Shown: piece by piece, positions 3,359 through 46,983 of the stretch
Layout of the letters: each line of letters opens with the position of its first letter
How positions within the stretch are numbered: the first letter of the stretch is position 1
DNA from: Agapetus fuscipes
Lineage: Eukaryota > Arthropoda > Insecta > Trichoptera > Glossosomatidae
NCBI GenBank assembly: GCA_951799405.1
Contig: OX637343.1
Span: forward strand, 15,974,524 to 16,038,523
Length of the DNA stretch: 64,000 nt
Direction of reading: 5' to 3'
Position numbers and translations under genes: made by a program
Notes under the pieces: generated by a model
The model's database searches: none
Seen by the model: the letters and a program-made list of their open reading frames with translations, nothing else
What the model was told of the DNA's origin: nothing

Positions 3359-3764
3359 TGTTATGTAAATATGAAATATAAATATTTAAAATAAGTAGGT
3401 ATTAGTTATAGTTAAAGGAATTATGTATTGTATTCTGTGGGTAGGAATCATTGAATAAAAATACTTGAAGCATCGAGAAATAATGATTACTACGCCTTTC
3501 TGGAACTGTCTAGCAAATATAGATCTAGATTGTACTGTTTTGAAGAGTATAAGAAGGGTGCGAGTTGCTTGCAGAGCGAGTATCCTACGAGCTTTACAAC
3601 TACATACGAGTACATTGAACCAAAACCAGTGAACAGAAACCAAGTGTAATGGAATAGTCGAGACTATCTATGTGAAAATAAATTATTAAAAGTGTAAAAT
3701 AAACAACTGTATAAGAAGACCAGTATTTTTAATTAAAAGACTTTTGAACCCTAAATTCGTAACA
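3359..3764 (+). mobile_element. Solo LTR with 4-bp target duplication
   Basis: Begins TGTTATGTAAAT and ends CGTAACA. It is flanked by ATAG on both sides (3355-3358 and 3765-3768). It is related to, but diverged from, the LTRs of the gag element at 4022. A TATAAG-like box follows GAAGAG near 3545, and AATAAA signals lie near the end. Recombination between two LTRs explains the loss of the interior. Confidence 0.85.
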
Positions 3765-3814: not shown

Positions 3815-4021
3815 CGGACTTGGAGTGCCTACGTGCGACTGAAACTTGCATACATATAACAATCTAGCTCTAGTATGATGATGATAGTGTTACCAACTGC
3901 GAACTTGGAGTACCTACGTGCGACTGTAAATACATACATAGAACAGTCTGGCACTAGTATGATGATGATGTTGTTACGAACTACGAACTTGAAGTACCTA
4001 CGTGCGACTGTAAATACATAC
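3815..4021 (+). repeat. Tandem repeat, 83-84 bp unit
   Basis: About 2.5 units share ACTTGGAGTACCTACGTGCG and CACTAGTATGATGATGAT. The start of the next unit resumes after the gag retrotransposon (7983: ATATAAGAGTTTGGCACTAG), so the retrotransposon inserted into the array. Confidence 0.75.
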
Positions 4022-4494
4022 TGTTATGTAAATATAAATATTGAAATAAGTATGGGTAGTTATAGTTATAAGAGTCCTCATAGGTATAGGTAGGTAGGAT
4101 CGATAATTGTGTATAAGTGTAGAATTCTCTAGGCTAAGTAGGTACTTGTTATAATTATAGGAATTCTGTATTACATTTGTAGGTAGGATTTTGGTTGTAT
4201 CTCTAGGTAGTACGTGAAGCGTCGAGAAGTAATAATTACTCTGGAACCGTCTGGCGACTTTAGTTCTGGATCATACTGCTCTGAAGAGTATAAAGGTGCG
4301 AATGGCCTGCAGAGCGGGCCAGTATCATAGCGACTAACAAACACATCGAAGCCATCTGATCAGTGAACCGAAACCAATGGAATAATCGAGAAAGTAGTGT
4401 GAAAATAAATTTTGTAACTGTGTAAAATAAATAACTATTGAAGAAGACCTGTGTATTTTTAATTTGAAGACAATTGAACCCTAATTACGTAACA
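4022..4494 (+). repeat. 5' LTR of the gag-only element
   Basis: TG...CA ends within TGTTATG...GTAACA. A TATAAA box sits at 4289-4294 and AATAAA signals near 4405 and 4428, giving a plausible U3-R-U5 order. Confidence 0.9.
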
Positions 4495-4496
4495 AT

Positions 4497-4514
4497 TGGT
4501 GTCAGGTGTGGGGT
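4497..4514 (+). promoter_or_regulatory. Candidate primer-binding site
   Basis: TGGTGTCAGGTGTGGGG starts two bases after the 5' LTR. It has the TGG start that pairs with a tRNA CCA end. The primer tRNA was not identified. Confidence 0.55.
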
Positions 4515-5114
4515 TGTCAAGAAAAATTAAGATCTTCTGTCTAAAAATAAATAAAATAAATTAAATAGTGTTAAAATGAACTTTATTCAAATTGAACTTT
4601 GTGTGAACTGACTTTTGTGAAAACAAGTGTTTAAATAAATTTTTGTTAAAAGAAAAGACGCAAAAGCAAGTTGCTTATAAATTCTGGAACATCATATGGA
4701 ACATAATTCTGGACCATAGTTTTTTTATTATTGTGTGTGATTAAAAAAATAAAATAAATAAATAAAAATCTTGAAAAATATTACAAAAGAACGTTCCAGA
4801 TTCATCGAGAAAAAGTTTTTGAATAACTATCCTTTGTTTACAAGTGTGTGAATGTACATTAAGTACCTACCTGTGTGTTTGAAAGACTTGAGACGAAATA
4901 AATAATTATGTACTATCAGACATTATTATGTTAAAAATATTGGTGAATTAAAAATAAATATTAAACGACAGTACCTACCTACCAATCAGTGTAATCAGAC
5001 AAATTATTATTTTTGCTAAAGTACGTATTCAAAATAACTTTATATATAAAACTCATAACCCGTATTAAATAAATTTGCAAATATTTTTGTTTTGAAGTTT
5101 GTTAAAAAAAAAAA
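4515..5114 (+). other. 5' leader of the gag-only element
   Basis: About 600 bases of very AT-rich sequence with several short upstream ATGs and no long ORF. It ends in a run of ten A's at the gag start codon (AAAATGG context). It could hold packaging signals, but no structure is evident by eye. Confidence 0.6.
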
Positions 5115-7505
5115 ATGGCTAAGGTGAACATCAAGGACCTCAAAGTCACTGAGCTTAAGAATGAGCTTCTGGAGAGGGACCTGGAGACCTCAGGAGGGAA
5201 GGCGGCCTTACAAGCACGCCTCATGGAAGCTCTAGAACAGTCAGGCGAAGACCCGGCATACTTTGTCATGGCATCTGGGGGAGACCGCGCCCTTGAGGAG
5301 CTGAACCTCAGCATCAATGGAAACTTGAAGGAAGGCCTCACTACCATGGAGGAGAAGATGACCAGTAACCTGACAGGACTGAAAGTGGAGATGGCTGACA
5401 ACGCCAAGACCCTGGAGGAGAAGATGGCTGACAACGCCAAGACCCTGGAGGAGAAGATGGCTGACAACGCCAAGACCCTGCAGGAGAACCTGACGGACCT
5501 GAAAGTGGAGATGACTGAAAACGCCAAGGCCCTGCAGGAAGACCTCGCCAACATGAAAGAGAAGATGAACGAGAATCTCACAACCCTGAAGGGAGAAATG
5601 GAGGAGAAGATGACAGCCCTGAAGGGGGAAATGGAGACTCGGATGTCAAATCTGGAGGTACATCTGCGTGCCGAGCTGGCCGACAAGGGCCAGATGGAGT
5701 CCACCAGAATATCCCCCAAAGGCCTTCACGACGAGACCGACCAGGGATGCTCAACTCCAACCAGGGTCACTAGAGGGGATGATGACCCTTCGCTGGCGAA
5801 GCACAACCTCCCGACCTTCGACGGGAAGACGTCGTGGGAGGAGTATTTGACCCTCTTTGAAACGGCTGCCATGATGGGAGCCTGGAGCCAGCAGAAGAAG
5901 GCTTCGGTTCTCAGCCTGTCGCTCCGAGGAGACGCTCTCAGGGTTCTGCAGGCCATACCCCTGGACAACCGTGGTGACTTTGGGCAGCTGAAGCAGCGCT
6001 TGGATATGCGCTATGGCCACAAGTGCCTGGGGCAGCTGTACAAGTCACAGCTGAACACAAGGGTGCAGAAGCCCAACGAGAGCCTCCAGGAGTTTGAGAT
6101 GGACATCGTCCACCTAGTACGAGACGCTTACCCGACATTCCCTGATGACATCTGCGAGAGCTTGGCAGTGGACAAGTTCCTGAACGGATTGAGAGAATGG
6201 GAGACGCAGCAAGCAGTGAAGCTGGCTCTTCCGAAGACGTTGAACGAGGCGCTAAGCCGAGCTCTCGAATTTGAGGCTGTCAAACAGTCCATCAGGGGCC
6301 ACGCCAGGGTTTGTGCAATCAAGGCAGAGGAGGTCAAACTACCTACAACCGAGGAAATAATAGAAAAAGTGCTGCAGCAACTTGAGCCAACGAGACAGAA
6401 GGCGCACTGCTGGACGTGTGGCCAGCAAGGACACCTGAGCGCGAGGTGCCCAAAGTCTCAAGGACCGGAGAAATTGGAAGACGACCGCAAGGATGTAGAG
6501 ACCACCATGGAGATGAACAAACGGCTGAGGAAACAGCTCCAGGATGCCGAGAGAAAGGTCAAAGTCATGGAGACGGAGAACAGGCAGCTGACGAAGAACT
6601 TGGCCAGCAGTGAAAGGGTCCGGCGAACAGCGGAGGCCGAGAGGGACGAGTTGCACGAGACTGTGCTGAGCCTGGAGAGACAGAACAAGGGGCTTAAGAC
6701 TAAGCTCCAGCAGGTGGAAGCTGGGCAGGGGCCCAGGACGAAGGACACCATCGCCAACCTGGAGTCCAAGAACAGCAACACCAAGGAGGCGGGAGCTCGA
6801 ATGAAGGATAACCACCGGCCAACTCAAAGAGCAAAGTGGTCAAACAATGACCAGCCCGCCCAGAGAGTACAAAAATGCGTCGCATCCAAAGAAGCGCCCC
6901 TGTTTGAGACGTTCTGGAGCAAGGTGCAAGAGGGACAGAAGATTCGCCATGGGGTGACCACAGAAGTCCACAAGGACTTATTTGAGGTCACTGGGGACCA
7001 CACACTGGCATGCAGTGTACCGGAAGATCTAGATATGTCTAGAGGAATTGCACGGGTCTTCCGATACAAATTCGGAGAACCGCAACCCTCGAGCAGCCCG
7101 CAAGGAAGAGCTCTGAGACTACCGAAGGGGCGTCAACAAGCATACTGCCTGGTTGTCCCGGATTCCAGCAACCTGGAAGAGGACTACAAGGCATTGTGGG
7201 ACGGCCTTGTTGAGCTGCGTGACTACATGTTGGAGGATCAGCAGGCGCGTCTGGCAATACCGAAGATGGGTGGCGGCCGCGCTAATCGAGACTGGCGGAT
7301 AATCCGGAGTATGATTGAAGCAGTGTTCTCGGGAGTCGGCATCAGCGTCATGGTGTGCTGCGAGCAAGCGCAGCCGAGAGCCAGTGGGGAGAAATCCGTG
7401 GACTGCCACTTCTTCCTGACCACAGGGTGTCGACGTGGATCAGCATGCCCCTACCTACACAGAGTCAAGACTGTTCCGGGACGAAACAGTCTAGGTGGGG
7501 GGTAG
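5115..7505 (+). CDS. Gag polyprotein with SAP, CCHC, macrodomain and CCCH finger
   Basis: This is a 796-residue retrotransposon protein. Residues 5-41 fit a SAP domain (VTELKNELLERDLETSGGKAAL). Residues 57-190 are coiled coil with an 11-residue repeat. Residues 230-395 (LPTFDGKTSWEEYLTLFE onward) match a Ty3/gypsy-type capsid. C432-C435-H440-C445 form a CCHC nucleic-acid knuckle, followed by a second coiled coil (455-555). Residues about 605-750 resemble a TARG1/ALC1-type macrodomain, the fold that binds ADP-ribose: GDHTLACSVPEDLDMSRGIA with RYKFGE, then a LAIPKMGGG loop at 714-722 and IRSMIEAVF. By-eye alignment puts Pro and Ala at the TARG1 catalytic Lys and Asp, so binding rather than hydrolysis is more likely. 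C764-C772-C778-H782 is a CCCH zinc finger. The stop codon abuts the 3' LTR. There is no pol ORF. Domain calls are by motif only; the macrodomain is the least usual and I rate it about 0.8. Confidence 0.93.
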   Translation: MAKVNIKDLKVTELKNELLERDLETSGGKAALQARLMEALEQSGEDPAYFVMASGGDRALEELNLSINGNLKEGLTTMEEKMTSNLTGLKVEMADNAKTLEEKMADNAKTLEEKMADNAKTLQENLTDLKVEMTENAKALQEDLANMKEKMNENLTTLKGEMEEKMTALKGEMETRMSNLEVHLRAELADKGQMESTRISPKGLHDETDQGCSTPTRVTRGDDDPSLAKHNLPTFDGKTSWEEYLTLFETAAMMGAWSQQKKASVLSLSLRGDALRVLQAIPLDNRGDFGQLKQRLDMRYGHKCLGQLYKSQLNTRVQKPNESLQEFEMDIVHLVRDAYPTFPDDICESLAVDKFLNGLREWETQQAVKLALPKTLNEALSRALEFEAVKQSIRGHARVCAIKAEEVKLPTTEEIIEKVLQQLEPTRQKAHCWTCGQQGHLSARCPKSQGPEKLEDDRKDVETTMEMNKRLRKQLQDAERKVKVMETENRQLTKNLASSERVRRTAEAERDELHETVLSLERQNKGLKTKLQQVEAGQGPRTKDTIANLESKNSNTKEAGARMKDNHRPTQRAKWSNNDQPAQRVQKCVASKEAPLFETFWSKVQEGQKIRHGVTTEVHKDLFEVTGDHTLACSVPEDLDMSRGIARVFRYKFGEPQPSSSPQGRALRLPKGRQQAYCLVVPDSSNLEEDYKALWDGLVELRDYMLEDQQARLAIPKMGGGRANRDWRIIRSMIEAVFSGVGISVMVCCEQAQPRASGEKSVDCHFFLTTGCRRGSACPYLHRVKTVPGRNSLGGG
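5391..5489 (+). repeat. 33-bp in-frame tandem repeat in gag
   Basis: Three units encode M-ADNAKTLEEK. The third ends LQEN instead of LEEK. The repeat extends the coiled coil by three 11-residue blocks and is nearly identical at DNA level, so it is recent. Confidence 0.85.
7491..7505 (+). promoter_or_regulatory. Polypurine tract
   Basis: AGGTGGGGGGTAG immediately precedes the 3' LTR and overlaps the gag stop codon. It fits the plus-strand primer of an LTR element. Confidence 0.7.
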
Positions 7506-7978
7506 TGTTATGTAAATATAAATATTGAAATAAGTATGGGTAGTTATAGTTATAAGAGTCCTCATAGGTATAGGTAGGTAGGATCGATAATTGTGTATAA
7601 GTGTAGAATTCTCTAGGCTAAGTAGGTACTTGTTATAATTATAGGAATTCTGTATTACATTTGTAGGTAGGATTTTGGTTGTATCTCTAGGTAGTACGTG
7701 AAGCGTCGAGAAGTAATAATTACTCTGGAACCGTCTGGCGACTTTAGTTCTGGATCATACTGCTCTGAAGAGTATAAAGGTGCGAATGGCCTGCAGAGCG
7801 GGCCAGTATCATAGCGACTAACAAACACATCGAAGCCATCTGATCAGTGAACCGAAACCAATGGAATAATCGAGAAAGTAGTGTGAAAATAAATTTTGTA
7901 ACTGTGTAAAATAAATAACTATTGAAGAAGACCTGTGTATTTTTAATTTGAAGACAATTGAACCCTAATTTCGTAACA
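7506..7978 (+). repeat. 3' LTR of the gag-only element
   Basis: Same length as the 5' LTR, with one visible substitution (TTTCGTAACA versus TTACGTAACA end). Confidence 0.9.
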
Positions 7979-7989
7979 ATACATATAAG

Positions 7990-8960: not shown

Positions 8961-8987
8961 TCTGCTAGTGTACTTGTGTTATGTCAC

Positions 8988-9680
8988 TGTGATTTTTGGT
9001 TAAAGTGCTGTTCTGTCACTGTGCTGTTTTGACACTGTGCTGATTTTTCACTGTGCTGTTTTGTCACTGTGCTGTTTTGTCACTGTGCTGTTTTGTTACC
9101 GTGTTGTTTTGTCACCGTGTTGTTGTGTCACTGTGCTGTTCTTTCACTGTGCTTTTTTGTCTCCGTGTTGTTTTGTCACTATGCTGTTTTGTCAACGTGC
9201 TGCTTTGTCACTGTGCTGTTTTGTTACTGTGGTGTTTTGTCACCGTGTAGTTTGGTCACTGTGGTGATTTGTCACTGTGTTGTTTTGTCACCGTCATTTT
9301 TTGTCACTGTGCTGTTTTGTCACTGTGCTGTTATGTCACTGTGCTGTTTTCTCACCGTGCTTTTTTGTCAATGTGCCGTTTTGTCACTGTGCTGTTATAT
9401 CACTGTGCTGTTTTGTCACCGTGCTATTTTGTCACTGTGCTGTTATGTAACTGTGCTGTTTTCTCACCGTGCTTTTTTGTCAATATGCCGTTTTGTCACT
9501 GTGCTGTTATATCACTGTGCTGTTTTATCACCGTGCTGTTTTGTCACTGTGCTGTTATGTCACTGTGCTCTTTTGTCACCTTCCTGTTTTTTCACTGTTT
9601 TTTTTGTCCCCGTGCTTTTTTGTCACTGTGCTGTTTTGTTACTTTGTTGTTTGGTCATGTATCGTTTTGTCACTGTTTGC
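8988..9680 (+). repeat. 16-bp minisatellite, about 43 units
   Basis: The unit is TGTCACTGTGCTGTTT. It varies mainly at CTG/CCG and TTT/TAT positions, with some higher-order similarity between 9300-9400 and 9430-9560. A 16-bp unit shifts frame every copy, so all three plus-strand frames translate to similar Cys/Val/Phe-rich strings without stops. These are not genes. Confidence 0.95.
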
Positions 9681-33222: not shown

Positions 33223-34083
33223 ATGGAAGAAGTGGGCCAATCGCAACATAAGCTCCTGCTCAATCTCCAGGAGAGGTTGGAAAATATGGAGACTCTCTTG
33301 AAACTCAACTATATAGATGTAAAAGGTATTCTAAATCACCTATCAAATTCACAAAATATCGCCGCCGCCCATGTATGTACCTGTACGCGGCCCGCAGCAG
33401 AGATGGTACAAGTACCAGCTATACCTACTGAGCCGAGATCGCGCGAGACACAGGTACATGCCAGTGCATCCGCACTCACGGTTACTAATACATACAGCGC
33501 CGCACTCAAGTCCCCACCGGCTGCATTCATCAGAACAAGAGCTGCCAAATTAAAAGCCGCAGCGAAGAGCGCGGACCCAGTTCTAGCGCCAGCACCAGTC
33601 TCTGTGGCACCCAGGACTAGGAATACCGAGTCCCAGGCACCTCTTCCTTCTACATCGAAACGCTCAAATCCTACACGTAGTAGAGATTATAAACCGCAAT
33701 CTGTACCTCCAACTGTCCCAACTGTAGCTGCTGTAGCCGCGCTGCCTGTGGACAAAGCGCGGCGAGCTGGGCGAGTGCAGCGCGGTACTCCGTGCACTGG
33801 CGAGCCCAGCGAGGCGCTGCAGCCCGCTGTCGTCCAGCGGTACCTACATGTCTGGAGGGCTCGCAAGGACACCACAGAGGAGGATATGGATAAATTTATC
33901 AAATTAAAATTGAAAAATATTGATACTATTACTATCGAAAAAATAATTCAAAAAAGAACTGTTAACTACGCTTCTTTCAAAATTGGCATTCCGGTAGAGG
34001 CGTATGAAGAGTGCATGAGCGCTGCTTTTTGGCCCAAAGGACTTTTGGTTGAAAGGTGGTTTTTTCTTACCGCACGTGCCTAG
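33223..34083 (+). CDS. LINE ORF1 protein
   Basis: A 286-residue ORF1. The N-terminus (EEVGQSQHKLLLNLQERLEN, residues 2-40) is a likely coiled coil. The middle (70-200) is Ala/Pro/Thr-rich and low complexity. The C-terminal 80 residues (VQRYLHVWRARKDTTEEDMD ... TVNYASFKIGIPVEAYEECM ... FWPKGLLVERWFF) form a compact domain. This domain recurs at the end of ORF1 proteins of arthropod LINEs and presumably acts in RNA binding or assembly. No CCHC knuckles are present. It overlaps the start of ORF2 by 35 nt in the +1 frame, which suggests coupled translation. Confidence 0.8.
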   Translation: MEEVGQSQHKLLLNLQERLENMETLLKLNYIDVKGILNHLSNSQNIAAAHVCTCTRPAAEMVQVPAIPTEPRSRETQVHASASALTVTNTYSAALKSPPAAFIRTRAAKLKAAAKSADPVLAPAPVSVAPRTRNTESQAPLPSTSKRSNPTRSRDYKPQSVPPTVPTVAAVAALPVDKARRAGRVQRGTPCTGEPSEALQPAVVQRYLHVWRARKDTTEEDMDKFIKLKLKNIDTITIEKIIQKRTVNYASFKIGIPVEAYEECMSAAFWPKGLLVERWFFLTARA

Positions 34084-36940
34084 ATTAAATAAAAAGAAGA
34101 GTTGCAAAGCATTGCCTAAGACAAAATGTTTAAATATTTATTACCAAAATGTAAGAGGACTAAAAACAAAACTAGAGGAATGGAGAACTAATTTGACTAT
34201 TGTTGAAGATACTTCTCTAGTAGCGGCAACGGAAACCTTTCTCGATGACTCGGTTCTTGATGCTGAGCTGGGTCATAATACATGGTCCATACTTAGGCGT
34301 GATCGTGAATCGGGGAAAAGAGGAGGAGGCGTGATTCTCTGCGCTAAGACTTCACTTCGCATTGAAAGACTTCCAGAATACGAAACTAAGGATGTGGAAG
34401 ATTTGTGGGCCAAATGCTGCATTGATGGTCATAGCATTGTCATATGTGTAGTGTACCTGCCACCCAGAAGTACCGAAGATGCATACGAGGCCTGGTTCGA
34501 TTCAGTCGAAAGAGTATGCTCGAAGCATGGGAGTAGTAGAACCCTCATTCTCGGTGACTTAAACTTATATAGTGCCAGTGAAAACACCAATAATCATTTT
34601 AATTGCTTCAAAACCTTGTGTGATTTAAAACAATTTAATGCTGTTTATAACAAAAATGATCGTATATTAGATGTGGTGATGACGAGTCCAGATCTGAGCG
34701 ATGCGTTGCGCGTGCATGCGGCTGAGTTGGGGGAGGAACTAGTGAGAATCGATGGCCACCACCCACCCTTACATATCTCTGTCAAGTATAGCTTCACAGA
34801 CAAGGCTAACACCATGTCACCCTCCAATATTGACAATTCATTGGATTGGAACTTTGCCAAAGCCGATTTTCTTAAACTTTATTATTACGTCAGGGAAATT
34901 GAATGGAATACCTTATTCCACACTACTGAAGTAAATACAGCTGTAGAAATATTCTATAATCTTAACTATCTTGCTTTTAACGAATGTATTCCGAAAAAAG
35001 TACGCAGGATATATAACAACCGATCATATCCTACGTACTATACAAGAACGATTATCAATAATATTGCTCTCAAAGCAAGATATCACCGCAATTGGAAGCG
35101 TGATGGTGATACTAGCTCTCGCAGCAATTTTCAGGCATTGCGATCAAAGGTAAAACATGACATCCGTGATGCGTACAAAAATTATATGTATAATCTATCG
35201 GGTGATCTAGCAAAACACCCAAGAAACTTTTGGCAACACTTTGACCGTTTACGCAATCGGGGAGGGATCGAATCTAAGATTACGCTCGATGATGTCGAAT
35301 ATGAGGGAGCTGAAGCTGCATCCGCGTTTGCTAGACACTTTGAGTCTGTCTTCTTACCTCATCAGCCAATTCTTAATTATAAAATGGCTACCATAGCTTC
35401 ATCTGCTGATAACCGCCTTGTTAACATACTAAATATCAATGAGTCTGATGTCAGAGGCGCCGTGAAAAAACTTAAGCCTAGTACATCACCAGGACCTGAT
35501 GCCATACCTGCAATTTATGTCAAGGGCTGTCTTGATTTGTTGCTTCCACCAATTCTTCACATTTTCAAAATTATTATTTCAACTGGTGTTTATCCGAATA
35601 TTTGGAAGTGTTCTAGAGTTATACCTATTCACAAAACGGGCTCGAAATCCAAAGTCGAAAATTATCGACCCATAGCTATTTTGTCCGCACTGGCGAAGAT
35701 CTTTGAAACCATCATCCACGACAAATTACTACCCCAATGTTTACCTTATGTATCCAGCGCACAACATGCATTTTTACCTCGTAGATCAGTTACCACTAAT
35801 CTCGGCGTTCATGTTGATTTGCTGACACGACATCTGGATGGAAGGGAACAAGTGGATGTTGTGTACCTTGATTTCCAAAAGGCCTTTGATAGAGTAGACA
35901 ATGATGTTCTACTGGTAAAACTTGCTAACATGGGTTTCGTCCCCAAACTGTTAAAACTTTTTGCATCATACTTATCTAACCGTACACAATTCGTGAAATA
36001 CGGCCCATACACTTCTTGCAACTACTTCACCCGGTCAGGCATTAGTCAAGGGTCGAATCTGGGACCGTTTTTTTTTGTTCTTTTCATTAATGACTTACCT
36101 GATGCAGTCTCTAGGTCAGATATAATAATTTTCGCTGACGATGTAAAACTTATCAAGACGGTCAGAAGTCATGCGGATGTAGTTGATCTGCAAAATGATC
36201 TGACTTCGGTCAACGACTGGAGCAGGCAGAACAAATTACTGTTAAACCTTAAAAAATGTCAGATAATGTCTTTTACGCGAGTTTCAAGTCCTTTCACACA
36301 TGACTACTTTATTTCCAACGAGCTTGTTACTAGAGTGAGCTCAGTTAGGGACTTGGGCGTGGTCTTCGACACCCAGCTCAACTTCCATACGCAGATCAGT
36401 AACGTAAGGGACAAGGCTTACCAGCGCTTGGGTTTCGTCATCCGTAATACGCAGATGTTATCTGACACTGCAACTCAGATATTATACACTGCACTAGTGC
36501 GTAGTATTCTCGAATCCAATGCACCGATCTGGGCTCCACATGAAAATAAATACATCTTAATGCTAGAACAGGTGCAAAAAGTATTTCTGAGGCATCATTA
36601 CAAAGTGTTGTATGGATACTATCCCTTTATGTATCCCACCGCTTTCCTGCAGGGACATCTTGGTTTCGACTCCTTATTCCTTAGAAGGCAACTTTCTCTT
36701 GCCAAATTCATTATCAAACTCCTCAGAAACGAGGTTGACAGCATGGAATTGAGCGGGCGTGTTTTGACGCTCTATGTGCCCGACTCCTTTACCAGAGCCA
36801 GGTCGCATAGGCTCTTTAGCGTTACCTCGAGCCGGACTAATCTCCTCCGTAACTCATTTGTTTCTCGTGCGCACGCGATGATCAATGATCTGATGTCGTC
36901 ATCGCCGAATATGGATATATTTTATTCCGGAATAAATTGA
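34049..36940 (+). CDS. LINE ORF2: endonuclease and reverse transcriptase
   Basis: A 963-residue polyprotein that nicks target DNA and copies the element RNA. Residues 28-250 form an EEP (APE-type) endonuclease: YYQNVRGL (Asn), ATETFL (Glu), LILGDLNL (Asp/Asn), ILDVVMTSP and DGHHPP (His). Residues about 455-760 form the reverse transcriptase: SPGPDAIPA, NYRPIAIL (residue 538), the A motif YLDFQKAFDRV (608), the B motif SGISQGSNLGPF, and the C motif FADD (695-698). The C-terminal part ends without an RNase H motif. The first ATG used lies inside ORF1. Both active sites look complete. Confidence 0.9.
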   Translation: MKGGFFLPHVPRLNKKKSCKALPKTKCLNIYYQNVRGLKTKLEEWRTNLTIVEDTSLVAATETFLDDSVLDAELGHNTWSILRRDRESGKRGGGVILCAKTSLRIERLPEYETKDVEDLWAKCCIDGHSIVICVVYLPPRSTEDAYEAWFDSVERVCSKHGSSRTLILGDLNLYSASENTNNHFNCFKTLCDLKQFNAVYNKNDRILDVVMTSPDLSDALRVHAAELGEELVRIDGHHPPLHISVKYSFTDKANTMSPSNIDNSLDWNFAKADFLKLYYYVREIEWNTLFHTTEVNTAVEIFYNLNYLAFNECIPKKVRRIYNNRSYPTYYTRTIINNIALKARYHRNWKRDGDTSSRSNFQALRSKVKHDIRDAYKNYMYNLSGDLAKHPRNFWQHFDRLRNRGGIESKITLDDVEYEGAEAASAFARHFESVFLPHQPILNYKMATIASSADNRLVNILNINESDVRGAVKKLKPSTSPGPDAIPAIYVKGCLDLLLPPILHIFKIIISTGVYPNIWKCSRVIPIHKTGSKSKVENYRPIAILSALAKIFETIIHDKLLPQCLPYVSSAQHAFLPRRSVTTNLGVHVDLLTRHLDGREQVDVVYLDFQKAFDRVDNDVLLVKLANMGFVPKLLKLFASYLSNRTQFVKYGPYTSCNYFTRSGISQGSNLGPFFFVLFINDLPDAVSRSDIIIFADDVKLIKTVRSHADVVDLQNDLTSVNDWSRQNKLLLNLKKCQIMSFTRVSSPFTHDYFISNELVTRVSSVRDLGVVFDTQLNFHTQISNVRDKAYQRLGFVIRNTQMLSDTATQILYTALVRSILESNAPIWAPHENKYILMLEQVQKVFLRHHYKVLYGYYPFMYPTAFLQGHLGFDSLFLRRQLSLAKFIIKLLRNEVDSMELSGRVLTLYVPDSFTRARSHRLFSVTSSRTNLLRNSFVSRAHAMINDLMSSSPNMDIFYSGIN

Positions 36941-46563: not shown

Positions 46564-46983
46564 TGTTATGTAAATATGAAATATAAATATTAAAATAAGT
46601 AGGTATTAGTTATAGTTATAGGAATTCTGTATTGTATTGGTGGGTAGGATTGATGGTTGTGTGCACATGGAGAAGTCTCTAGGCTAAGTAGGTATTTCGA
46701 GAAGCATCAAGCAAAAATATATTTCAGAGTATTCGATTCTCTTAGTATAAAAAGGGTGCAAGTTGCTTGAACGAGTCAGTTATTATTCAAGCTCTCACCA
46801 CTACAGTCTCCTGCCAGCTTTACAAATACATTGAACCAACTTGACCAGTGAACAGAAACCAAGTGTAATAGAATAATCGAGACTATCTTTGTGAAAATAA
46901 ATTATTAAAAGTGTAAAATAAACAACTGTAAAAGAAGACCAGTGTTATTAATTGAAAGACTTTTGAACCCTAAAATCGTAACA
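46564..46983 (+). mobile_element. Solo LTR with 4-bp target duplication
   Basis: TGTTATGTAAATATG...ATCGTAACA flanked by GTAT on both sides (46560-46563 and 46984-46987). It is closer to the 3359 solo LTR than to the gag-element LTRs. TATAAAAAG box at 46746. Confidence 0.9.

Follow-up and report, generated by a model that had tools for sequence, protein, structure and literature searches.

A Gag-Only Long Terminal Repeat Retrotransposon of Agapetus fuscipes With a TARG1-Like Macrodomain and a CCCH Finger Fused to Gag

The Element and Its Single Open Reading Frame

The stretch of DNA analyzed here (the window) comprises 64,000 nucleotides of the trichopteran Agapetus fuscipes (contig OX637343.1) and harbors a long terminal repeat (LTR) retrotransposon at 4022-7978 of the forward strand, whose only large open reading frame (ORF) encodes a Gag protein that continues into a TARG1-like macrodomain and a CCCH zinc finger. 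The element is bounded by a 5' LTR (4022-4494, TGTTATG...CGTAACA) and a 3' LTR (7506-7978), each of 473 bp and on the + strand like all features of the element, which are identical at 472 of 473 positions, the sole mismatch being A4487/T7971. The four letters ATAC stand on either side as a target-site duplication (TSD; 4018-4021 and 7979-7982), and when the flanks are joined without the element, the 84-bp local repeat that served as insertion site runs on. The untranslated leader of 620 bp (4495-5114) contains stops in all three frames as well as a putative primer binding site (PBS), TGGTGTCAGGTGTGGGG, which begins with TGG just past the 5' LTR (4497-4513); a scan for tRNA genes found none in the 64-kb window. 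At the other end, a putative polypurine tract (PPT), AGGTGGGGGG (7493-7502), doubles as the last codons of the ORF and is followed by TAG and then by the 3' LTR. Paired TG..CA LTRs, TSD, putative PBS, and putative PPT together identify an LTR retrotransposon. Between the LTRs no + strand ORF of at least 120 amino acids (aa) was found besides gag, whose stop codon touches the 3' LTR, and the protease, reverse transcriptase, RNase H, and integrase that an autonomous Ty3/gypsy element carries there are thus missing.

A prediction made earlier from the letters alone (the original prediction) had proposed that one uninterrupted ORF encodes the Gag of a selfish element with SAP-like, capsid, CCHC, macrodomain, and CCCH segments. 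The ORF was recovered with the same bounds (5115-7505, ATG to TAG, 796 aa; protein P0001) and the selfish-element Gag stood; LTRs, TSD, and missing pol had no place in that proposal, nor did a myosin-like second coil and the copy family. The protein begins with a SAP domain (residues 6-41, 5130-5237; Pfam PF02037, E 7.3e-9), followed by a first coiled coil at about residues 46-224 (5250-5786, bounds set by eye). Within this coil, 33-bp and 54-bp repeats lie in frame at 5389-5636; the ORF size differs among genomic copies, for which these repeats are possibly responsible. The capsid-like region (about residues 225-400, 5787-6314) was assigned through related Gag proteins, five of which are 56-61% identical across 82-92% of residues 200-460; the Retrotrans_gag family is matched in aligned Gags and was not called by Pfam in P0001 itself. 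The CCHC zinc knuckle at residues 432-447 (6408-6455) matches PF00098 with E 0.0016 and 18.9 bits, below the cut-off of 20.8. Downstream follow a second coiled coil resembling the myosin II tail (about residues 458-540, 6486-6734), a linker (about residues 541-611, 6735-6947) without Pfam match in 6735-6941, the macrodomain (about residues 612-752, 6948-7370), and the CCCH finger (residues 760-782, 7392-7460). In the whole protein the finger scores E 0.0012 and 19.2 bits against a cut-off of 20.5, whereas the isolated piece passes the cut-off (PF00642, E 1.8e-5). The fusion of Gag, TARG1-like macrodomain, and CCCH finger in one ORF is thus supported, and we regard the anatomy described here as nearly certain.

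Gag Relatives and the Added Half

A protein search with residues 200-460 yielded six proteins out of 1427 candidates. Five of these (P0003-P0007) come from contigs of 1.8-6 kb and share the N-terminal architecture and the capsid region with P0001. All of them bear a SAP motif, which is present in six of the six aligned Gags, so that SAP is ancestral to this Gag family and did not arrive with the macrodomain. PF03732 (Retrotrans_gag) was matched in three of the six aligned Gags and the zinc-binding model Integrase_H2C2 in one of six (E 0.0034), which, judged by its sequence, we take to be P0006; these matches point to a Ty3/gypsy family whose Gag consists of SAP, coil, capsid, and CCHC. P0003, P0004, P0005, and P0007 terminate shortly past the CCHC knuckle and P0006 continues into other sequence, and in contrast to P0001 none of the five has the added coil, the macrodomain, or the CCCH finger. 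Judged by these ends, the ancestral Gag comprised SAP, coil, capsid, and CCHC, and the residues from about 454-458 onward were added (in the following, the cargo). The sixth match, P0008, comes from the beetle Holotrichia oblita, where a gene model annotated as phosphorylase b kinase regulatory subunit has a piece of the Gag family near its end, which is probably an insertion or an annotation error.

The first piece of the cargo resembles the tail of myosin II. Residues 454-517 match Myosin_tail_1 with E 3.8e-8, and residues 454-516 align to Myosin-10 1654-1716 with 24.1 bits (E 0.00038), whereas 17 other stretches of the chain reach at most 2.4 bits; the stretch common to myosin and P0001 reads LASSERxRRxAExERDEL. 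Since the Pfam score of 32.1 bits is under the cut-off of 38.1, an origin of the second coil from a myosin II tail is likely but not proven. When the CCCH finger was compared together with the flanking SGEKxVxC, chains of CPSF4 (CPSF30) came first with E 1e-8 summed over fingers, the best single-finger match being weak (E 0.038). The four CCCH ligands are retained in 49 of 49 copies.

Identity of the Macrodomain and Its Pocket Residues

In a phmmer search against the PDB, human TARG1/OARD1 was the first match to P0001, with E 2.4e-9 over residues 616-747 and no composition bias, and a profile of two sequences raised this match to E 7e-12. A profile from 19 macrodomains of viral contigs, archaea, and bacteria gave P0001 40.9 bits (best stretch 683-748), whereas the top of 2000 shuffles of residues 610-755 reached 6.6 bits with the same profile. 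When the fold was predicted with an alignment of macrodomains selected by motif, a good model was obtained with TARG1/OARD1 as best fold match; the chikungunya macrodomain solved with RNA (3gpq) was also among the fold matches. Sequence and modeled fold thus agree with a TARG1/ALC1-like macrodomain, as had been proposed, and a chance resemblance is ruled out by the PDB matches, the fold, and the distance to the shuffled scores.

In the alignment to TARG1, Asp20, Gly43-Ile44-Ala45, Gly121, and Gly123 are retained. The TARG1 Lys and Asp, whose loss had been noted by eye, are indeed replaced: Lys84 by P682 (49 of 49 copies) and Asp125 by A723 (48 of 49 copies). These two, with their roles and numbers, we take to be the catalytic residues of TARG1, and the pair on which TARG1-type hydrolysis would depend is missing. 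The His and Asn typical of phage-type macrodomains (17 and 19 of 19 sequences) are likewise replaced, by C633 and P636. The natural reading of these replacements is a reader of ADP-ribose that would not hydrolyze it, and that the domain is a working ADP-ribose binder appears to us an evenly balanced proposition.

Some traits recall phage-type sequences: the position of A723 is Ala in 17 of 19 of them, and D726 and W727 agree with 17 and 19 of 19, whereby 17 of the 19 had been selected by a motif covering the comparison at D726/W727. However, the first loop is PED here and SED in TARG1, whereas most of the phage-type sequences combine NC with one more residue there; this loop and the best sequence and fold matches favor TARG1 over a phage origin. 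By tblastn against phages, matches were obtained in 28 of 50,697 records, and the ten listed cover the macrodomain only (26-29% identity). A motif scan of viral contigs gave at least 120 stretches, and this class of macrodomain appears to be common in phage contigs. Nothing was found in viral contigs searched with P0001 and the alignments A2 and A3, in genome contigs searched with alignment A1, or in full-length-class proteins searched with P0001 residues 590-796.

A Young Family of Copies With a Mosaic History

The genome (618 Mb, 148 contigs) was searched for further copies, which gave 61 rows corresponding to 57 places. Scoring was confined to 57 of the 2479 first-look candidates, taken in order of their likeness to P0001, so that this number is a lower bound and biased toward cargo-bearing copies. 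Of these at least 57 places, 53 span about residues 1-796, 52 of them without a stop. Fifty places were read, and 49 carry an ORF of 771-813 aa (all at least 760 aa), the remaining one (L169) being broken; the junction of stop codon and TGTTATG with the 3' LTR is present in 48 of the 50. LTR pairs were measurable in 41 copies and identical in 26 of them, 4-bp TSDs match in 37 of the 41 (mostly ATAT, GTAT, or ATAC), and the PBS occurs in the form TGGTGTCAGGTGTGGGG or TGGCGTCAGGTGCG in 40 of the 41. The element belongs to a Gag-only, non-autonomous family of LTR retrotransposons and represents a young insertion, and LTRs, a Gag-only ORF, and recent movement, the latter deduced from identical LTRs, place it with elements of the TR-GAG type. 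A domesticated gag gene is ruled out by the near-identical LTRs, the TSD, and the at least 57 similar places. Among the copies L123-L172, 18 ATAT, 9 GTAT, and 8 ATAC were counted in the 37 matching TSDs, a bias toward RTAY. The LTRs of the copies fall mostly into two size classes of about 473 and 515 bp.

The two halves of the protein have different histories. Among the copies the mean pairwise difference is 4.4% in residues 1-400 versus 0.7% in residues 458-796, with a correlation of 0.05, and identical cargo is found on Gags that are up to 8.3% apart (L165/L170). Compared with P0001, the public protein P0002 has 16 differences in the 51 residues of 577-627 and a single one in the 169 residues beyond, and in 2 of 49 copies (L160, L161) the linker is near the P0002 type. 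Thus, it is probable that Gag backbones have traded cargo, which template switching in co-packaged RNA would bring about. Pairwise ratios of nonsynonymous to synonymous substitution rates (dN/dS) were calculated for the 49 copies with intervals from codon resampling, which are optimistic because codons and not lineages were resampled. Residues 1-457 gave a dN/dS of 0.25 (0.19-0.34; dS 0.104) and residues 458-796 one of 0.54 (0.34-0.85; dS 0.011); within the latter, the second coil gave 0.85 (0.29-3.64) and the linker 0.39 (0.20-0.80).

Other Features of the Window

A solo LTR that is older and belongs to a related family lies at 3359-3764 (+); it is 72% identical over LTR positions 114-473, has ATAG on both sides, and represents a separate insertion. 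Another solo LTR akin to that of the element is located at 46564-46983 with GTAT on either side. An exon of the Carboxylesterase family (COesterase, E 8e-17), which resembles neuroligin, occupies 1225-1749 on the - strand, and the element may sit in an upstream intron of this gene in opposite orientation. About 44 tandem copies of a 16-bp unit, TGTTTTGTCACTGTGC, with 79% matches and two overlapping open frames extend over 8977-9676. At 33223-36940 there is a non-LTR retrotransposon with an endonuclease-reverse transcriptase ORF (RVT_1, E 2.9e-27) and an overlapping upstream ORF of 286 aa without Pfam match, possibly ORF1.

Discussion

The explanation that we consider best, and to which as a whole we give about an even chance, is that of a pol-less family whose Gag carries a host-like tail with the macrodomain as an ADP-ribose reader. 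In this family, pol would have been replaced by pieces of cellular genes, namely a myosin II tail coil, a macrodomain of the TARG1/OARD1 type, and a CPSF30-like finger, which were joined at the former end of Gag, probably by copying of cellular RNA along with element RNA. Gag would form particles and package its own RNA, and reverse transcriptase and integrase would be borrowed from an autonomous relative, so that the element would be a parasite of a parasite. The macrodomain would recognize ADP-ribose attached to host proteins or nucleic acid and leave it in place, and would thereby bring Gag or its particles to ADP-ribosylated chromatin or mask marks used for host silencing. Such a chromatin or anti-PARP role is a tentative suggestion, the odds of which we put below even. 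The same caution applies to the wider idea that a catalytically dead macrodomain lets Gag dock at, or hide from, ADP-ribosylated repressive chromatin, and that the cargo was thereby shuffled onto several backbones and at least 57 places, which is conceivable but rather doubtful.

Several observations weigh against the preferred explanation. Pfam Macro was absent from P0001 at E up to 10 (19 families listed), and a first fold prediction from two sequences had a mean model confidence (pLDDT) of 48.1, with no macrodomain among 50 listed PDB matches; the later, good model is not fully independent because its alignment used motif-selected macrodomains. The myosin match lies below the Pfam cut-off and the CPSF30 match is weak per finger. 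The macrodomain has a dN/dS of 0.47 (0.19-1.23), an interval that includes 1, and of 0.75 (0.29-2.92) in the first 30 copies alone, the CCCH finger has one of 1.21 (0.32-5.76), and part of the signal in residues 458-796 is supplied by the linker with its two haplotype classes in 577-627. Finally, the cargo is nearly clonal, so that invariant residues carry little information.

Such figures would suit a useless passenger, gained by RNA template switching, the mechanism by which maize Bs1 acquired pieces of cellular genes; its spread would then be due to a working Gag with its LTRs and packaging signals. In favor of a passenger are the tandem arrangement of two or three host-like pieces that are unrelated to one another, the lost catalytic residues, the youth of a nearly clonal cargo with a dS of 0.011 versus 0.104 in Gag, and a macrodomain dN/dS indistinguishable from 1. 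However, about 340 added codons have stayed open in 49 of 50 copies, although most copies are very young, dN/dS over the whole cargo is below 1, and the same cargo recurs on diverged Gags as if it were favored. Overall, a mere passenger seems to us a real but minority possibility. It might also be that the tail handles RNA, with macrodomain and CCCH finger as RNA-binding parts and the coil as an aid to multimerization, so that the element's own RNA is packaged in competition with an autonomous Gag. CPSF30 as top match of a finger whose ligands are all conserved, the coil ahead of the macrodomain, and the RNA-bound chikungunya macrodomain among the fold matches would be in line with this, but the weakness of the best single finger and the CCCH dN/dS above 1 make it improbable. 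A macrodomain that still removes ADP-ribose, be it on host proteins or on the element's own nucleic acid, by unorthodox chemistry would fit the retained fold and glycine loops, but is very unlikely, as the TARG1 Lys84 and Asp125 and the phage-type His and Asn are all replaced, at every site in at least 48 of the 49 copies.

Viral macrodomains act against host ADP-ribosylation, and a Gag that reads ADP-ribose would, if true, be their counterpart in a mobile element. Genomic retrotransposons might meet and counter an ADP-ribosylation defense as viruses do, and the present family hints that mobile elements may engage host ADP-ribose signaling. In PARP-1-null flies, the majority of misregulated mobile elements go up. 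The gypsy superfamily contributes three of the eight significant elements and nine of ten further risers that stay below the significance limit; according to the authors, the effect may be indirect (PMC7712786). In mammals, SIRT6 ADP-ribosylates KAP1, which silences L1 (PMC4695847). The fly data supply a motive, not evidence, for an anti-PARP role of the Gag-macrodomain protein. With a young many-copy family whose macrodomain is fused to Gag, binding, localization, and PARP dependence become testable with one small domain.

Comparison With Known Systems

In maize Bs1 and the acutely transforming retroviruses, coding sequence of cellular origin has taken the place of genes of the LTR element itself, in many cases fused to Gag; this recalls the host-like pieces of our element, but the host genes concerned differ, and we know of no macrodomain in them. 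Plant TR-GAG elements consist of LTRs and one Gag ORF without pol, as here, and one was shown to transpose in Arabidopsis, a precedent for the mobility of Gag-only elements; this is a plant element of the copia type, and a host domain is not mentioned for TR-GAG elements in the sections consulted (PMC8704663). Epsilon-like endogenous retroviruses of fish, credited to Basta et al. (2009), have ORFs with macro domains and are thus likewise retroelements that acquired a macrodomain, but there it is an extra ORF of a vertebrate retrovirus, whereas ours is a C-terminal fusion to the Gag of a pol-less element (PMC4977317). With human TARG1/OARD1 (C6orf130) our macrodomain shares 39 of 135 aligned columns, including Asp20 and the glycine loops, and differs from it by Pro and Ala in place of the catalytic Lys84 and Asp125 and by being part of a retrotransposon Gag. 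A literature search with terms for macrodomain and retroelement did not show, in the titles and beginnings of abstracts among the records listed and with most subscription journals outside its coverage, a description of a Gag-macrodomain fusion. Macrodomain-bearing fish retroviruses, Gag-only elements, and gene-capturing LTR elements are thus known already, and the fusion of Gag and macrodomain in a pol-less LTR element is, within the literature searched, apparently undescribed. With host-like pieces in the place of pol and an added half that was probably swapped among Gag backbones, the family looks like a case of gene capture in an animal.

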